Positions 58,101 to 64,000 of a DNA stretch of 64,000 nucleotides are shown here, in pieces. The notes beneath the pieces were generated by a model, which was given only the letters and a program-made list of their open reading frames with translations, was not told where the DNA came from and searched no databases. Source of the stretch: Variovorax sp. RA8 (GTDB taxonomy: Bacteria > Pseudomonadota > Gammaproteobacteria > Burkholderiales > Burkholderiaceae_C); the NCBI RefSeq assembly GCF_901827175.1, contig NZ_LR594662.1, positions 3,286,001 to 3,350,000 on the forward strand, read 5' to 3'. Each line of letters begins with the position of its first letter. The first letter of the stretch is position 1. The position numbers and the translations under genes are program-made.

Positions 58101-58319
58101 GTCTGGAAAGAGTCCCTGCACGGCAGCGAGCAGGGGTGCCTCGGGTCAAGAAAAGAGAGCGACGGAAGCGCCGAAGTTTGCCATACCGCGCGACCGGCTT
58201 TGCCCAGTGCCGTCAGTGTCTTCAGAAGGGCAACGTTTAACAGCGAACCATGCCGAACGGCTGGATTCGTCACTCCGAGGAGGTGCCGCGCTATGGAGAG
58301 CGCTCAGGCGGATCGGGAA

Positions 58320-59011
58320 TCAAGCCAAGCTCGTACAGGACTCCGCCTCGAAGATATTGGTCCAAAACTGATCCCATGCTGTTTTGGCCATCTCATAGCC
58401 AATACGGATCTCTTGCTCGCACTCGGGCGATTGGATGATCTCTTCATCGATCGCCGCACGCAGCCGGACTCGATGCAGGATGTCGATCTCTCCGCTATGA
58501 ATGTCCCAAAAGCGCCAATCGACTCCGTCAGCAATTGCAACAATGGCCGGGTTGCGGCTGAAATGCAGATGCATCGCTGCGAGGTACTGCTGGCAGAGGC
58601 ATTCCCCACCCAAGCCACGAAGCCCGATACCTTGGGCGCAGGACTCTTGGAGCATGCGCTGGCTGATATCTTCGAGTAAAGCGATATTGCTTTCGATAGG
58701 CTTGCAATCTGCAGGATCAGCGCCGACGCTCAGGAGAAAGGCGTCATAGAGATTAGGATGGGCATCTGGCGCACTGCCGACGCCGAGCTCCTCACTCAGG
58801 AACTCGGCCAGTAGGCTGCGCAGCTTGCCGAAGGGCAAGCGATGGACAAGCAAGGCCATGTCAGCGATGTAATAGATCGTGAAGTAGGATACTGAACAAA
58901 GATGCGCCTCAACGACTCCATCGGCAACGTCTGAAGCGTCCGCAGCTTGTGATCTGCCAGAAACTCAGCCTCCATCCGGCTCGCTTCCGCGCGTTTCCAA
59001 AACTCCTGCAT
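58320..59011 (-). pseudogene. Haem-oxygenase-like diiron oxidase (HDO/iron-containing redox enzyme) interrupted by a frameshift
   Basis: The gene begins at ATG 59011 with a strong AAGGAG site 7 bases upstream and runs as MQEFWKRAEASRMEAEFLADHK to ...LRRIFVQY, then the frame shifts by one near 58885-58895. The correct continuation is in another frame (YFTIYYIADMALLVHR, to 58320). Joined, about 230 residues result, the HDO size. Metal ligands are visible: Glu in LSEELGVGS, His in HPNLYD, Glu in GGECLCQQY, and HSGEIDILH. It might be a real lesion, a sequencing error, or rarely a programmed shift. The downstream ATG at 58859 has no ribosome site. The gene follows the cupin gene by 57 bases. Confidence 0.72.
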
Positions 59012-59068
59012 TGCACGTCTCCTTCCTATGGGTAATCTCTGGGTTAGCCGATCGAATGACGAGAGCGT

Positions 59069-60136
59069 TCATATCTTTTCGTATTTGCCGACGTAAATCT
59101 GGTTGGTGAGGTAGTAGTCGGTGATCGCGAGCAAAACCAATTCATCTGTTCCAGTGTTGTGTGTCTGATGAATGGCCCAGCGCGGGCAAAACACCGCATC
59201 GCCCGGCCCGACCTGCACCCAGATCTCGCCCACGAGGACCTTGCCAGTTCCCGAGATCAAGTAGAAGAGGGTCTCATGAGCGTGCTTGTGCCGGTTGTTG
59301 CACTTGCCCGCAGGAATGCGCACGACACGGGGATCCAGTACCTCCGCCGTGCAGGGATATCGCTCGACCGTGAACTGGATTCCCCGTGTGTCGTCGAGTT
59401 GGGTACACATGATTTCCCCGGCGCCAGGGTAAAGAGCTATCGGGGGCTCGATCTCATTCTCAAGACTTCTTCGGGATTGAATGCGCTCGATGGAACACTC
59501 CATGCGTGCAAGCCGCATCATGGCAAAGAGATCAGACAGGAATTCGAGCTGATGGGTCAAGAGTTGATCCAGAACCGCGTAGTTCACGTCACCGCAAAGA
59601 CTCACTGCCGTTGCAGGTATGCCTTGGATGTCCGGCCGTGCTTCGACATCGGTAGACTTCGCAATGGCCTCCTCAACGGCCGCGAGAGACAGAGCCGAGA
59701 GATGCACGGTTGCACGGATAAGGGCGCTTCTCTCTTGCGTTGGAATGCCCGCGTACAGCGCAAGCACGGCGCTTACGAAATGCCTTGCGAACGTGGGGGC
59801 TGCCGCGCTGCCGCCGATCGCAGAGGCGCCGATCTGGCGAAGTGCAGTCTGGTACCTCTGTCGCTGATAGTCCCCCATCAGAACAGCCAAATAGGCGACG
59901 GAGTTCTCGCCTTCAGCCCGAAGAGCGTGAGCGCCAGGTCCTTCGAGTAGCTCGGCGTGTGTCCATGCAAGAATGGGAATGATGAATAAGCGGTCTTCGT
60001 GAGTTGTCCATCCTGCGCTGAGCATGCGCAGGATGGGTACAGCGGGCAAGGCGTCAAATCGTTCTGCGCGTGCGATGGCTTGCTTGGAATGAAGTCGCCC
60101 TCCAGGCCGCTCATCTCTGGTTACTTCAGACTGCAT
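59069..60136 (-). CDS. Helical-domain plus cupin protein (unrecognised, SznF-like architecture in part)
   Basis: A 355-residue protein from ATG 60136, with GGGAG 6 to 7 bases upstream; earlier in-frame ATGs at 60178 and 60226 are less likely. Residues 20-230 are mostly helical and lack recognisable metal motifs (WTTHEDRLFIIPILAWTHAELL, AVLDQLLTHQLEFLSDLFAMM). Residues 262-345 are a cupin: RHKHAHETLFYLISGTGKVLVG with His283/His285 and Glu288, and PRWAIHQTHN (His323). The cupin and the HDO gene downstream recall the domains of SznF, which builds the N-nitrosourea of streptozotocin; whether this protein does anything similar is inference. GC is below that of the flanks. Confidence 0.6.
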   Translation of the reverse strand: MQSEVTRDERPGGRLHSKQAIARAERFDALPAVPILRMLSAGWTTHEDRLFIIPILAWTHAELLEGPGAHALRAEGENSVAYLAVLMGDYQRQRYQTALRQIGASAIGGSAAAPTFARHFVSAVLALYAGIPTQERSALIRATVHLSALSLAAVEEAIAKSTDVEARPDIQGIPATAVSLCGDVNYAVLDQLLTHQLEFLSDLFAMMRLARMECSIERIQSRRSLENEIEPPIALYPGAGEIMCTQLDDTRGIQFTVERYPCTAEVLDPRVVRIPAGKCNNRHKHAHETLFYLISGTGKVLVGEIWVQVGPGDAVFCPRWAIHQTHNTGTDELVLLAITDYYLTNQIYVGKYEKI

Positions 60137-60203
60137 GCATATCTCCCATGAACATCTCTGTGTTTTGTCTTGCCGCATATGTGACAGCTTCGAATGATTA
60201 ACC

Positions 60204-61130
60204 TTAACCTGGGACTTTTCGCGCACCAGTCACGACCAGTGCGACTCCGGTCATGACCAGTCCGATCCCTGCCAAGGTTAACGGAGCCGGAACTTCGTCG
60301 AGCACGAACATGCCGATCAGAACGGCGAGAGCCGGCGCGAGCGCACCGAAGATCGCCGCTCTCGGGGCGCCCAGACGACGCACAGCTTCCGTGTAGAAGA
60401 ACATTCCCAGGATCGCGACCGCAACGCCCTGCGCCAACACCTGGAACGCCACCGTGCTCAACGGTGCCTCGAAGATGTTGGGCTTCAACCAGAGGAAGTA
60501 GATCGGCGCAAAGAGGACAGCCGAACAGACATTGACCAGAGCGGTGGCATGCCATGGGCTGATGCCGGCGCGTCGCTGCGCAATCGTGAAGCTAGCGAAG
60601 CACAGGCCCGCCACCAGGAACAGCAAGTCGCCGCGCCATTCCCCTGCCGCTCGATGCGCAACCAGCGCATAGCCACCGATGCAGAGCACGCCGATCACGA
60701 CAATGGCCATCCCTCCCAGCTGCTTGCGCGTGAATTTCTCGCCAAAGAAAAGTCCCGATAGCACGGCCACCCAGATCGGCATCATTCCAATCATGAGCGT
60801 CGCGACGTGCGATGCGGGCGCGAAACGCATGCCGAGCGAGCCCAGCATCATGAACGGCACGCCGGCGCCCATGACCATCACCAGCAGGCGCACGGCGCCG
60901 ATCTGCGCGATGCCCAGACCCTTGCGGACAAGAATCGGCCATAGCAACAGTGCGGACACGCCAAAGCGAAGGAAAGTCACGTCGTGCGGTCCCAAGCTGG
61001 TGGTGACGGCGAAGCGTGTCGCCACGGCCCAGCCGGACCAGATCAACGCGACGGCGAGGCCGCAGAGAACACCGGCGGTCAGTGTCTGCCTTCCGGACGA
61101 GCCGGCAACTGGAACGGGAATCGCCGACAT
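60204..61130 (-). CDS. EamA/DMT-family transporter
   Basis: A 308-residue protein with ten predicted membrane helices in two homologous halves (EamA repeats), e.g. VLCGLAVALIWSGWAVATRFA and VAFQVLAQGVAVAILGMFFYTEAVRRLGA with the family Pro/Gly pattern. DMT members export amino acids, metabolites or drugs. ATG 61130 lies 3 bases before the stop of the dehydrogenase gene; TTG 61136 is also in frame. It is inside the HDO/cupin operon and may export the product or substrate. Confidence 0.88.
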   Translation of the reverse strand: MSAIPVPVAGSSGRQTLTAGVLCGLAVALIWSGWAVATRFAVTTSLGPHDVTFLRFGVSALLLWPILVRKGLGIAQIGAVRLLVMVMGAGVPFMMLGSLGMRFAPASHVATLMIGMMPIWVAVLSGLFFGEKFTRKQLGGMAIVVIGVLCIGGYALVAHRAAGEWRGDLLFLVAGLCFASFTIAQRRAGISPWHATALVNVCSAVLFAPIYFLWLKPNIFEAPLSTVAFQVLAQGVAVAILGMFFYTEAVRRLGAPRAAIFGALAPALAVLIGMFVLDEVPAPLTLAGIGLVMTGVALVVTGARKVPG

Positions 61131-61132
61131 GA

Positions 61133-62005
61133 TCAATGGCCCGCGCGCAGAAGCTTGATGATGCCGATGGCGTCATCCTGCGACTGGCCGGCTTGCATGG
61201 CCTTGGCAAACAGTGCGCGATTGGCAGCGGCAATTGGCAGCCAGATGTTGACCCGAGCGGCCTCGTCGCACACCAAGCCGATGTCCTTGGCGACGTGCCG
61301 GATCGGTGCCTGCTGTGCAAAATCGTTGGCCGCGAGCTTGGCCACCTTCGAGCGCAGCACATCGTTGGCCAGGGGACTCGCCAGGGCCATGTCGAGGAAC
61401 TCCTGCACGTCCAAGCCAATGCCGGCCGCGAAATGAGTGGCCTCGGAAATCGCCTCGAACCAAGCGATGAGCAGCAGTTGATTGGCCAGCTTCATGCGCA
61501 TCGCCGTGGGTACCGGGCCGCATCGCACGGTCTTCTTGCCGATCGCATCGAACATGGATTGGATCTCATCGATGTGATGGGCATGGGCTGCGGAGGCCAG
61601 AACCACGAGTTGACCCGCTTCGGCCGGCAGCCTCGAGCCCGAGACCGGCGCTTCTACGTACCGCGCACCCGCGTCGGAGAGAGCAGTGCCCAATGCTTGC
61701 GAATATTCCGGTGCGACGGTGGCCATCAGGACGATCGTCTTGCCCTGAACCGGCAGCCCGACTGCGCCATTGGCCGTTCGGCCAAGCACCTGGTCGACCT
61801 CCGCGTGGGTCGGCACCATGACGATGACGACTTCCGAAGATGAAATGGCTTGGCGGGCTGAGTCCGCAATCTCGATGCCCAGCGGCCGGAGGACGTCGCA
61901 GCGGCTGGGCGTGCGGTTGTAGACCGTGACGGCGAAACCCGCCTTCTTGAGGTTCCTGGCCATGGGCTCGCCCATGACGCCGACACCGATGAGTGCAATT
62001 TTCAT
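61133..62005 (-). CDS. 3-Hydroxyisobutyrate dehydrogenase-like (beta-hydroxyacid dehydrogenase) NAD(P) enzyme
   Basis: A 290-residue beta-hydroxyacid dehydrogenase. The Rossmann motif is IALIGVGVMGEPMA (3-16), the substrate motif YVEAPVSGSRLPAEAG and the catalytic Lys in MRMKLANQLLLIAW. GTG 62008 is in frame just upstream. Relatives reduce or oxidise short 3-hydroxy acids (tartronate semialdehyde, hydroxyisobutyrate, imines). It is the first gene of the operon leading to the HDO gene, divergent from a LysR gene. Confidence 0.88.
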   Translation of the reverse strand: MKIALIGVGVMGEPMARNLKKAGFAVTVYNRTPSRCDVLRPLGIEIADSARQAISSSEVVIVMVPTHAEVDQVLGRTANGAVGLPVQGKTIVLMATVAPEYSQALGTALSDAGARYVEAPVSGSRLPAEAGQLVVLASAAHAHHIDEIQSMFDAIGKKTVRCGPVPTAMRMKLANQLLLIAWFEAISEATHFAAGIGLDVQEFLDMALASPLANDVLRSKVAKLAANDFAQQAPIRHVAKDIGLVCDEAARVNIWLPIAAANRALFAKAMQAGQSQDDAIGIIKLLRAGH

Positions 62006-62114
62006 CACGCTGCGATTTCTCCGTTATCAAGTTGATCCGCCGCACCACGGGGCTGGTGTTGTCGCGTGCCGTGACTCTAAGATGGGAAGGGTGTGACGTG
62101 AAATGAGTTATCGA

Positions 62115-62127
62115 GAACGAATCGTTC
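62115..62127. promoter_or_regulatory. Palindromic site upstream of the LysR gene
   Basis: GAACGA (62115-62120), central A, TCGTTC (62122-62127): a perfect 13-bp palindrome 14 bases before ATG 62142, in the 136-bp divergent region between the LysR gene and the dehydrogenase operon. A plausible LysR autoregulatory and operon operator. Confidence 0.5.
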
Positions 62128-62141
62128 GCAGGGAGTGATAT

Positions 62142-63008
62142 ATGGAGTTTTCCGATTTGCAGATTTTTAGGACCGTCGTGCAATCAGGTGGCGTGGTGCG
62201 TGCCGCCGAGGTGTTGCATCGGGCTCAATCGAGCGTGACGGCACGCGTTCGCGTGCTCGAGGAGAAGCTGGGCGTGCAGTTGTTCCTGCGCGAAGGACGC
62301 CGCCTTCAGCTCTCTCCTGCCGGCAGGATTCTGGTGGGCTACGCGGACCAGATGCTGGAACTGGCCAAGCAGGCGGCCAGCGCGGTCAGGACCGACCGCC
62401 CCACCGGCGTGCTGCGGATCGGTGCAATGGAAAGTACGGCTGCAGTACGCCTGCCCGAGCCGCTGGGACGTTTTCACGAGCGCTATCCGGAAGTGGCGCT
62501 CGAGCTCTATACCGGCGATCCGCGGGAGTTGGTCAACCGGGTGATCAAGGGGGAGCTGGATGCGGCCCTGATTGCAGACCCGGTGTCCGATCGGCGCCTC
62601 GCGACGCAGGCGATCTACGACGAGGAGCTCGTCATCGTCGCCGAGGCCAGGCATGCGTCCATCACGTCGCCCAAGGACGTGTGCTCAAGGGCCATCCTCG
62701 CTTTCCATCCGGGCTGCCCTCATCGCAGGCGAATCGAGGAATGGTTCGCGCGTGGCCGCGTCATGCCCGAGCGGATTGTCGAAGTCGGCTCCTACCACCT
62801 GATCCTGGGCTGCGTCGCCGTCGGCATGGGCGTGGCCCTGGTACCGCTCAGCGTGCTCGAAGGCTATTCGGAGCGCGACCGGCTAAGCATCCACAAGCTG
62901 GGCTCGAAGTTCGGCCACGCCAAGACCCGGCTCGTCTGGCGCAAAGACTCCCCGCAGATGAAGATCCAGGCTCTCTCCTCCGTTTTGCTGGAGAGCTACA
63001 ACGTCTAG
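62142..63008 (+). CDS. LysR-family transcriptional regulator, divergent from the HDO/cupin operon
   Basis: A 288-residue LTTR. HTH in residues 1-60 (DLQIFRTVVQSGGVVRAAEVLHRAQSSVTARVRVLEEKLGVQLF), effector domain from 90 (LRIGAMESTAAVRLPEPLGRF). The GGGAG ribosome site precedes ATG 62142 by 7 bases. Its position head-to-head with the dehydrogenase gene makes it the likely regulator of the four-gene operon. Confidence 0.9.
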   Translation: MEFSDLQIFRTVVQSGGVVRAAEVLHRAQSSVTARVRVLEEKLGVQLFLREGRRLQLSPAGRILVGYADQMLELAKQAASAVRTDRPTGVLRIGAMESTAAVRLPEPLGRFHERYPEVALELYTGDPRELVNRVIKGELDAALIADPVSDRRLATQAIYDEELVIVAEARHASITSPKDVCSRAILAFHPGCPHRRRIEEWFARGRVMPERIVEVGSYHLILGCVAVGMGVALVPLSVLEGYSERDRLSIHKLGSKFGHAKTRLVWRKDSPQMKIQALSSVLLESYNV

Positions 63009-63011
63009 GCA

Positions 63012-63923
63012 TCACGCGACGCGGCGCTGCGCCGACGCTGACGCCAGCGGCGTCAATTCTTTCAGGATCGCCCGCACCCGCGCCGGCACCATCCGGTTGG
63101 CCGGCATCACCGCGTGGATCGGCGTGCTGGGGGGGCGGCAGGTCGGCAGGAGCTCGATCAAGGTGCCCGCAGCCAACTGGCGGTTCACCATGTAGTCGGG
63201 CAGTTGCGCGACACCCAGCCCCAGTTCGGCGGCCTGGGCCATGGCTTCGCCATCGGAGAACCGGAACTGGGCCACGGCGCGAAAGTCGCGCTGGCGCCGG
63301 CCTTCGCGAAAGTGCCAGACCTGGTCGCGGCCGCTGGTCGGCATGCGAAACAGGATCGCCCGGTGTCCGGCCAGGGCCGACACATCTTCTGGACGGCCAT
63401 GGGCGTCCAGGTAGGCCGGCGCGGCACACAGGACCCAGTCCTGGCTCGCGATGCGCCTCGCCACCAGGCGCGAGTCCGCCATGGCGCCGATGCGGATCGC
63501 CAGGTCCACGCCCTCCTCGACCAGATCGACGAAGGCATCCGACAGCCGCACATCCAACCGCAGTTCCGGATGCTTGGCCGCGAGCTGGACGATCGCGGGC
63601 ATCACGCGCTCGCGACCGAACACGACCGGCAGGTCCACCCGCAGGGTTCCGCAGGGCTTGGTCAGCGTGCCCAAGGCTTCGGCCTGAAGCCCTTCGAGTT
63701 CGGCGATGACGCGCCGGCAGCGGTCGAACAGCCGCTCGCCATCGGAGGTCAGCGTCACGCGTCGAGTAGTGCGATGAAAAAGCCGCAGCCTCAGCTTGGA
63801 TTCAAGCCGGCCCACGGCCTTGGCGACCGTCGAGGGTGTGGTCCCGAGCTCTCGCGCCGCGGCGGCGAACGAGCCGTGCTTGACGGTCTCGGTAAAGGTC
63901 AAAAGCCACTCCATTCCCAGCAT
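63012..63923 (-). CDS. LysR-family transcriptional regulator
   Basis: A 303-residue LTTR. HTH is in residues 4-62 (WLLTFTETVKHGSFAAAARELG, TPSTVAKAVGRLESKLRLRLF), and the effector domain begins near 92 (LRVDLPVVFGRERVMPAIV) in the CrgA/DsdC-like group. AGGGAGG 6 bases before ATG 63923 supports that start. It is convergent with the LysR at 62142 (3-base gap between stops). Its target is probably the gene divergent at the window end, not visible. Confidence 0.9.
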   Translation of the reverse strand: MLGMEWLLTFTETVKHGSFAAAARELGTTPSTVAKAVGRLESKLRLRLFHRTTRRVTLTSDGERLFDRCRRVIAELEGLQAEALGTLTKPCGTLRVDLPVVFGRERVMPAIVQLAAKHPELRLDVRLSDAFVDLVEEGVDLAIRIGAMADSRLVARRIASQDWVLCAAPAYLDAHGRPEDVSALAGHRAILFRMPTSGRDQVWHFREGRRQRDFRAVAQFRFSDGEAMAQAAELGLGVAQLPDYMVNRQLAAGTLIELLPTCRPPSTPIHAVMPANRMVPARVRAILKELTPLASASAQRRVA

Positions 63924-63952
63924 GTCGATCCTCCCTATTGCAGAAATTTATT

Positions 63953-63972
63953 CCTCAGTGTCATGCCTGAGG
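63953..63972. promoter_or_regulatory. Inverted repeat near window end, upstream of LysR gene
   Basis: CCTCAG (63953-63958) and CTGAGG (63967-63972) around an 8-bp spacer, 30 bases upstream of the LysR start at 63923 and preceded by an AT-rich AAATTTATT stretch. A LysR-type site for self and divergent control is plausible, but the divergent gene lies outside the window. Confidence 0.4.
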
Positions 63973-64000
63973 TGCGCATTCTCAATCAGGGTTGACGAGC

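Follow-up and report, generated by a model that had tools for sequence, protein, structure and literature searches.

A Variovorax operon pairing a heme-oxygenase-like diiron oxidase with a cupin protein that carries a predicted decayed oxidase domain

Why a cupin protein that already carries a helical domain of its own should be encoded next to a separate diiron oxidase, and what pathway such a pair might serve, are the questions raised by an operon of Variovorax sp. RA8. The stretch analysed here (hereafter, the window) comprises 64,000 nucleotides, positions 3286001-3350000 of contig 1 of the 7.42 Mb genome, and encodes on the minus strand a beta-hydroxyacid dehydrogenase (HAD), an EamA-family transporter, a cupin fusion protein and a heme-oxygenase-like diiron oxidase (HDO), with a LysR regulator in the divergent orientation (Table 1). 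We consider it probable that the operon was gained by horizontal transfer and serves a single pathway of oxidative small-molecule chemistry, in which an HDO-cupin oxidase has been split and rebuilt with another HDO. The operon is not described in the open-access literature searched.

An earlier prediction for this DNA (hereafter, the original prediction) had proposed a four-gene operon with short gaps and its own divergent LysR, and both proposals are borne out: the gaps along HAD, EamA, cupin and HDO are 2, 67 and 57 nt, the LysR gene lies 136 nt from HAD, and the gene order is the same in three genomes of the genus. The full five-gene copies compared were those of the window strain, Variovorax sp. 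E3 (G006) and Variovorax sp. HW608 (G854). Protein identity to the latter two is 54-85%, and the rate of nonsynonymous substitution (dN) is far below that of synonymous substitution (dS) in every comparison with estimable dS. Because the set recurs in two genomes with dN well below dS, the operon is not a chance neighbourhood, an explanation also ruled out by the shared order, by co-occurrence and by contig linkage elsewhere. The conserved linkage that the original prediction had proposed to look for, and whose lack was to count against it, is thus found in E3 and HW608.

Two HDO domains of different descent

The original prediction described the cupin as fused to an unrecognised helical domain. 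The fusion stands, but the domain is, according to profile and structure comparisons, an HDO domain stripped of its iron ligands. In an hhalign comparison to the HDO portion of canonical HDO-cupin fusions, it scores a Prob of 98.4 (E 4e-15, 192 columns), and Foldseek aligns the window cupin protein along SznF chains over 343-375 columns (E 8e-6 to 5e-5), matches that overturn the notion of a new fold; whole-chain superposition on SznF is poor (rmsd, root-mean-square deviation, 18.6-20.4). The VIA-align rows for the cupin model are mostly cupins, and the helical domain gets only TenA, with a Z of 12.8, a value near the chance level for helical bundles, so that the fold assignment leans on hhalign and Foldseek. 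The columns of the three His and one Asp iron ligands are retained in 0/21 aligned sequences of this domain and the Glu ligand columns hold Glu in 2 to 6 of 21; the cupin ligands H283, H285 and H323 are kept in 21/21. The protein begins with helices at residue 14 and consists of one helical domain followed by the cupin, an extra N-terminal domain being absent. Its closest solved cupins by sequence are gentisate and 5-nitrosalicylate dioxygenases, a predicted oxalate decarboxylase and unnamed cupins; SznF is absent from the matches in sequence searches with this protein. A close match to the cupin is also found in P0039 (508 aa, on 14 contigs), in which a methyltransferase domain is joined on in the middle of the cupin; the join may have arisen when sequence between two adjacent genes was deleted.

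As a ligand-less HDO, the helical domain marks the cupin protein as a descendant of an HDO-cupin fusion, the separate HDO being a second, only distantly related one. The profiles place the separate HDO in a branch other than that of the decayed domain, and a recent duplication of the operon's own HDO as the source of that domain was rejected (hhalign Prob 4.4). The separate HDO carries the three histidines and three carboxylates of the HDO superfamily, the ligand columns E75, H85, E137, H172, D177 and H180, as assigned by alignment, being invariant across 27 rows, and is predicted to adopt the heme-oxygenase-like helical fold. Its larger piece scores 35.8 bits against PF14518, compared to 42.3 for the E3 protein and a cut-off of 28.9. 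Structural alignment with the stand-alone HDOs BesC, FlcD, HrmI and HamA gives 13-17% identity, and the last ligand helix has one residue more than in BesC.

The original prediction had called for a frame correction of the HDO. A net loss of one base at ~58885-58890, compared to the intact E3 and HW608 genes in the DNA alignment, accounts for it, but the gene itself is broken: the N-terminal piece (58886-59011, 42 aa) matches no family, the remainder lies in open reading frame (ORF) 58320-58859, and both are matched as separate entries in G000. With a dN of 0.15 and a dS of 1.6 between the window and E3 after the frameshift, the break is either recent or an assembly error. A 179-aa shortened HDO in the database (P0102) seemingly traces to the window's own contig and therefore offers no clear independent confirmation. 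Being frameshifted, the window HDO may be dead, and the oxygenation step is probably lost or impaired in this strain. The HDO and cupin genes of E3 and HW608 have open frames. In HW608, a reverse-transcriptase ORF (PF00078, perhaps of a group II intron) lies between them (L021:9562-11379).

Comparison with known systems and a possible pathway

In SznF, N-oxygenation takes place in the HDO and rearrangement in the cupin (available excerpts of PMC11705231 and PMC11177257), and among about a dozen characterised HDOs SznF alone has a cupin, according to the excerpted part of PMC13108848. Like SznF and StzF of streptozotocin biosynthesis, the window cupin protein has an HDO-like domain followed by a cupin with a conserved HxH...H motif, its H283, H285 and H323 standing beside SznF H407, H409 and H448 in a putative one-to-one correspondence. 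Unlike SznF, it has lost the HDO ligands and has no N-terminal domain, and an HDO is supplied by a second gene; of the SznF-family hallmarks, the three-domain order and a functional diiron site on the same chain are missing and the cupin histidines are present. The parallel with SznF that had been drawn originally is supported as to the pairing of HDO with cupin; the fused HDO is ligand-less, and the separate one is only distantly related to it.

The arrangement also resembles that of ChmM and ChmN from the chalkophomycin pathway, where, according to the excerpted text of PMC11177257, the HDO domain of the cupin fusion has no ligands and a separate neighbouring oxygenase is believed to take its place. 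The same excerpts place ChmM, which is without HDO ligands, in a cluster of homologues that keeps the three cupin histidines and in which all but one member miss many HDO ligands, identify ChmN as a haem enzyme yielding hydroxylated arginine, and count 107 ChmN-type genes adjoining SznF homologues with an HDO predicted to be inactive. The window proteins share with this type the lost HDO ligands, the retained cupin histidines and an adjoining separate oxygenase. They differ in that the operon partner is a diiron-type HDO (PF14518), whereas ChmN is a YqcI/YcgG haem enzyme; neither a YqcI/YcgG haem N-oxygenase nor a non-ribosomal peptide synthetase (NRPS) was found among the five operon genes.

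Canonical HDO-cupin fusions (P0040 and relatives, 20 aligned) are homologous to the window protein over its full length, with 35-48% identity over the aligned part, but keep the HDO ligands; their linkage to the operon HDO or HAD amounts to 1 ambiguous case and 0 of 24, and no published function for them was found in the literature searched. The cluster of the fragin/valdiazen pathway likewise encodes both an HDO, HamA, and a separate cupin protein, HamB, of which the text says only that it is a cupin with a possible role (excerpts of PMC11705231); unlike the operon, this pathway has an N-oxygenase, HamC, with no counterpart among the five genes.

It is likely that SznF-like chemistry is here split between two proteins, a predicted active HDO acting in trans and a cupin protein with a dead HDO domain of its own. 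The pairing suggests a so far uncharacterised pathway of oxidative steps serving a small molecule that is exported. The separate HDO would bind two irons and oxygenate a small amino-acid-like substrate, after which the cupin, with its own mononuclear metal, would rearrange or cleave the oxidised intermediate, as the SznF cupin does after the HDO step. The dead HDO domain might persist in a dimerisation or docking role, with the active HDO as a possible partner. The HAD would reduce or oxidise the resulting carbonyl or beta-hydroxyacid, EamA would export the product and LysR would control the operon from the shared intergenic region. A more specific version, which we offer tentatively and regard as doubtful, has the two proteins form a dimetal-cupin oxidase: the dead domain would dock or heterodimerise with the distantly related active HDO, and an unstable amino-acid intermediate, oxygenated on N or C, would be passed on to the cupin. 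Without the help of an NRPS or polyketide synthase, such a system would yield a novel small metabolite for export, its skeleton containing N-O or N-N or being cleaved. If the split oxidase is real, it would represent a second way for HDO-cupin enzymes to lose the diiron domain and recruit another oxygenase (a haem enzyme in the case of ChmM, a different HDO here), and the role of dead HDO domains would become directly testable, the minimal set of two oxygenases, a dehydrogenase, a transporter and a regulator being small enough for whole reconstitution.

Distribution, linkage and alternative explanations

The HDO is present in 3/101 genomes of the genus, the same three that share the five-gene order, in 2/399 genomes of the family (one a weak match), and in 2/399 and 2/398 genomes sampled from the order and the phylum, respectively, the window's own genome being counted in every figure. 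The cupin protein occurs in 3/101 genus genomes, exactly those bearing the HDO. HAD (E<=1e-80) is found in 13/101: seven of the 10 genomes without the HDO have LysR-HAD-EamA (loci L044-L050) and three have LysR-HAD, so that, including the three full copies, LysR-HAD-EamA is present in 10/101. In G017 the EamA match is divided over two ORFs, and E3 holds a second LysR-HAD locus (L054). This distribution suggests that LysR-HAD-EamA is a wider unit, to which the HDO and cupin were added within the genus or from which other members lost the pair.

Beyond the genus, linkage was read from protein records, including those of the myxobacterial relatives, rather than from loci and is therefore indirect. 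Proteins matching HAD, cupin and HDO occur on equal-sized contigs of Bordetella ansorpii (1146323) and on several metagenome contigs, and those matching HAD and HDO on equal-sized contigs of Paracidovorax anthurii (103974); contig size 3660 is ambiguous. Across 14 pairs, 13 matched by equal-sized contigs and one from the E3 locus, the HDO distances correlate with those of the dead domain (r 0.69; 0/2000 permutations reaching this value) and of the cupin (r 0.58; 1/2000), and the dead domain correlates with its own cupin at r 0.43. A search for canonical fusions in 249 genomes returned the window cupin protein and one further genome, G638, where the HDO and cupin matches lie in two neighbouring ORFs (L055:8472-9802), either a true split or a frame-broken fusion. 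Taken together with P0040-type fusions, this indicates that HDO and cupin occur as a fusion, as neighbours and as a dead-HDO-cupin protein with another HDO.

Several observations weigh against a split and rebuilt oxidase. The last His-Asp-His stretch of the decayed domain is a gap in 14 to 21 of 21 sequences, so that the ligands there were lost by deletion and the alignment of this part is uncertain; hhalign finds no match between that domain and the operon HDO (see above); and the H-x4-D-x2-H spacing of the latter is one residue longer than SznF H311-x3-D315-x2-H318. According to the excerpts of PMC11177257, no in vitro activity has yet been seen for ChmM itself. The HDO gene is disrupted in the window, and the seven LysR-HAD-EamA loci without HDO and cupin imply that HAD, EamA and LysR may serve another purpose. 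Shared descent confounds the co-variation of the HDO with the dead domain (r=0.69, n=14), and saturation (mean identity of 27% in the dead domain) limits it further. Finally, HDOs sharing 42-50% identity with the E3 protein are also met where no cupin of this kind is present, suggesting that the HDO alone can be useful: a cupin-fusion relative is absent from genomes G184 and G700, both carrying a related HDO, and no cupin-protein match was found on any collection plasmid, including the HDO-bearing Rhizobium rhizogenes and Nostoc plasmids, the chromosomes of which were not searched.

On R. rhizogenes plasmid pC5.7c (L024:10915-15496), the HDO (43%) is accompanied by a divergent LysR, a methyltransferase, a drug/metabolite transporter (DMT) and cysE, a different HDO operon. 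It was rejected as a parallel: the DMT protein has no significant match to the operon EamA, the methyltransferase none to the operon proteins or the corresponding domain of P0039, and the LysR only a general match. Sulfur genes adjoin the Nostoc and Rhizobium HDOs; substrate guesses drawn from them stay guesses.

That the operon of the window strain is a decaying, non-functional remnant is a serious possibility, if somewhat short of an even chance. The HDO frameshift and an apparently truncated major facilitator superfamily (MFS) gene in the same block speak for decay, but the HDO still looks constrained after the frameshift, as judged from its dN and dS against E3, and the other four genes have open frames. 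Alternatively, the operon might be catabolic or detoxifying, with HDO, cupin and dehydrogenase degrading an encountered compound sensed by LysR or moved by EamA. HAD-family enzymes are often catabolic, the LysR protein is nearest, though under the cut-off, to the putrescine-utilisation regulator PtrR, the nearest solved cupins include the ring-cleaving dioxygenases mentioned above, and the LysR-HAD-EamA core is more widespread in the genus. Nevertheless, the very patchy distribution, the pairing of oxygenases of kinds met in specialised metabolism and the lack of a CoA-ligase or aldolase-type gene among the five conserved genes make this explanation unlikely. It is also rather improbable that the cupin fusion and the HDO catalyse separate reactions and owe their linkage to co-transfer, the cupin being perhaps a non-oxidative isomerase, lyase or sensor: cupins have many functions and those nearest by sequence do not include SznF, but the exact co-occurrence over 101 genomes, the contig-level linkage and the ancestry of the cupin protein among HDO-cupin fusions argue otherwise. 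Finally, the separate HDO is most improbably a cofactor enzyme of the TenA, PqqC or CADD type (thiamine salvage, pyrroloquinoline quinone (PQQ) or p-aminobenzoate), chains of which are among its top fold matches, given its six invariant ligands, whereas the PQQ and thiazole enzymes are called metal-independent in the excerpted part of PMC13108848 (no argument against the dimetal CADD), and given that inspection by eye, without a family search, of the genes beside the E3 and HW608 copies revealed none for thiamine, PQQ or folate.

The inserted block and its genes

Transfer, as put forward in the original prediction, is supported by the ~8.5 kb inserted block in which the operon sits, a block that, from the pattern of matches, is horizontally acquired and absent at this site in relatives. 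In blastn comparisons with G012, G002 and G854 (HW608), homology ends at 58118, the start of a gene that we take from its sequence to be Tex-like, and returns at 66582-66589; these genomes have only ~0.58-0.64 kb in place of the block, the right end of which (~66585 in window coordinates) is ~2.6 kb past the window end. A tblastn search (E<=1e-15) of 7.7-8.7 kb stretches from seven genomes placed the right-flank gene 1.2-3.9 kb from the Tex side in 6/7 and matched none of the queried block ORFs, the HDO not being among the queries. The E3 copy adjoins a presumably PurL-type gene and the HW608 copy is flanked by what appear, by sequence recognition, to be katG-like and BamA-like genes. The lower GC content that had been proposed compared to the flanks (68.1% at 1-58300) is marked for the HDO (56.4%) and cupin (57.6%) genes, but only slight for HAD and EamA (63.4-63.5%); LysR stands at 64.5%.

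Table 1. Features of the operon and the inserted block, in window coordinates
Feature	Position	Strand	Basis
HAD (beta-hydroxyacid dehydrogenase, 3-hydroxyisobutyrate / tartronate-semialdehyde reductase superfamily)	61133-62005	-	PF03446 E=5e-38 + PF14833
EamA/DMT-family transporter	60204-61130	-	PF00892 E=1.5e-34
Cupin fusion protein, 355 aa: predicted decayed HDO domain ~14-215 + cupin ~240-345	59069-60136	-	Cupin_2 PF07883 E=2e-15
HDO, frameshifted	58320-59011	-	PF14518 E=9e-9 on piece 58323-58859
LysR regulator, divergent, PtrR-like below family cut-off	62142-63008	+	PF00126 + PF03466
Perfect 6-1-6 palindrome GAACGATTCGTTC, candidate LysR box, LysR/HAD intergenic region	62115-62127	-	13-region alignment
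In-window part of inserted block	58119-64000		blastn vs three genomes

The block also holds a second LysR, two tandem 2-oxoglutarate-Fe(II) oxygenases, the second with a Pfam match to the WelO5 halogenase family (E=1.4e-7), and the MFS gene, whose 241-aa ORF matches only MFS_1 positions 2-170 of 347; the oxygenases and the MFS gene together occupy 63796-66426 (L063:5797-8427), mostly past the window end. No relatives of these extra genes were found on the stretches around the E3 and HW608 operons.

None of the five operon genes reaches a family cut-off in the NCBIfam search. The best equivalog for HAD scores 164.5 of the required 340.75 bits, indicating superfamily membership only, and LysR scores 312.9 bits against NF047711 (cut-off 400). 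EamA is 77-85% identical in HW608 and E3. A LysR homologue adjoins HAD in 13/13 other HAD loci examined (12 genomes). Among the window and 12 other LysR/HAD intergenic regions, compared without a shuffle control, the aligned place is palindromic with <=1 mismatch in five of 13 (window, E3, G838, G855 and G849). The E3 LysR (L010:7072-7944) has an odd N-terminus, suggesting a frameshift in the E3 draft assembly.

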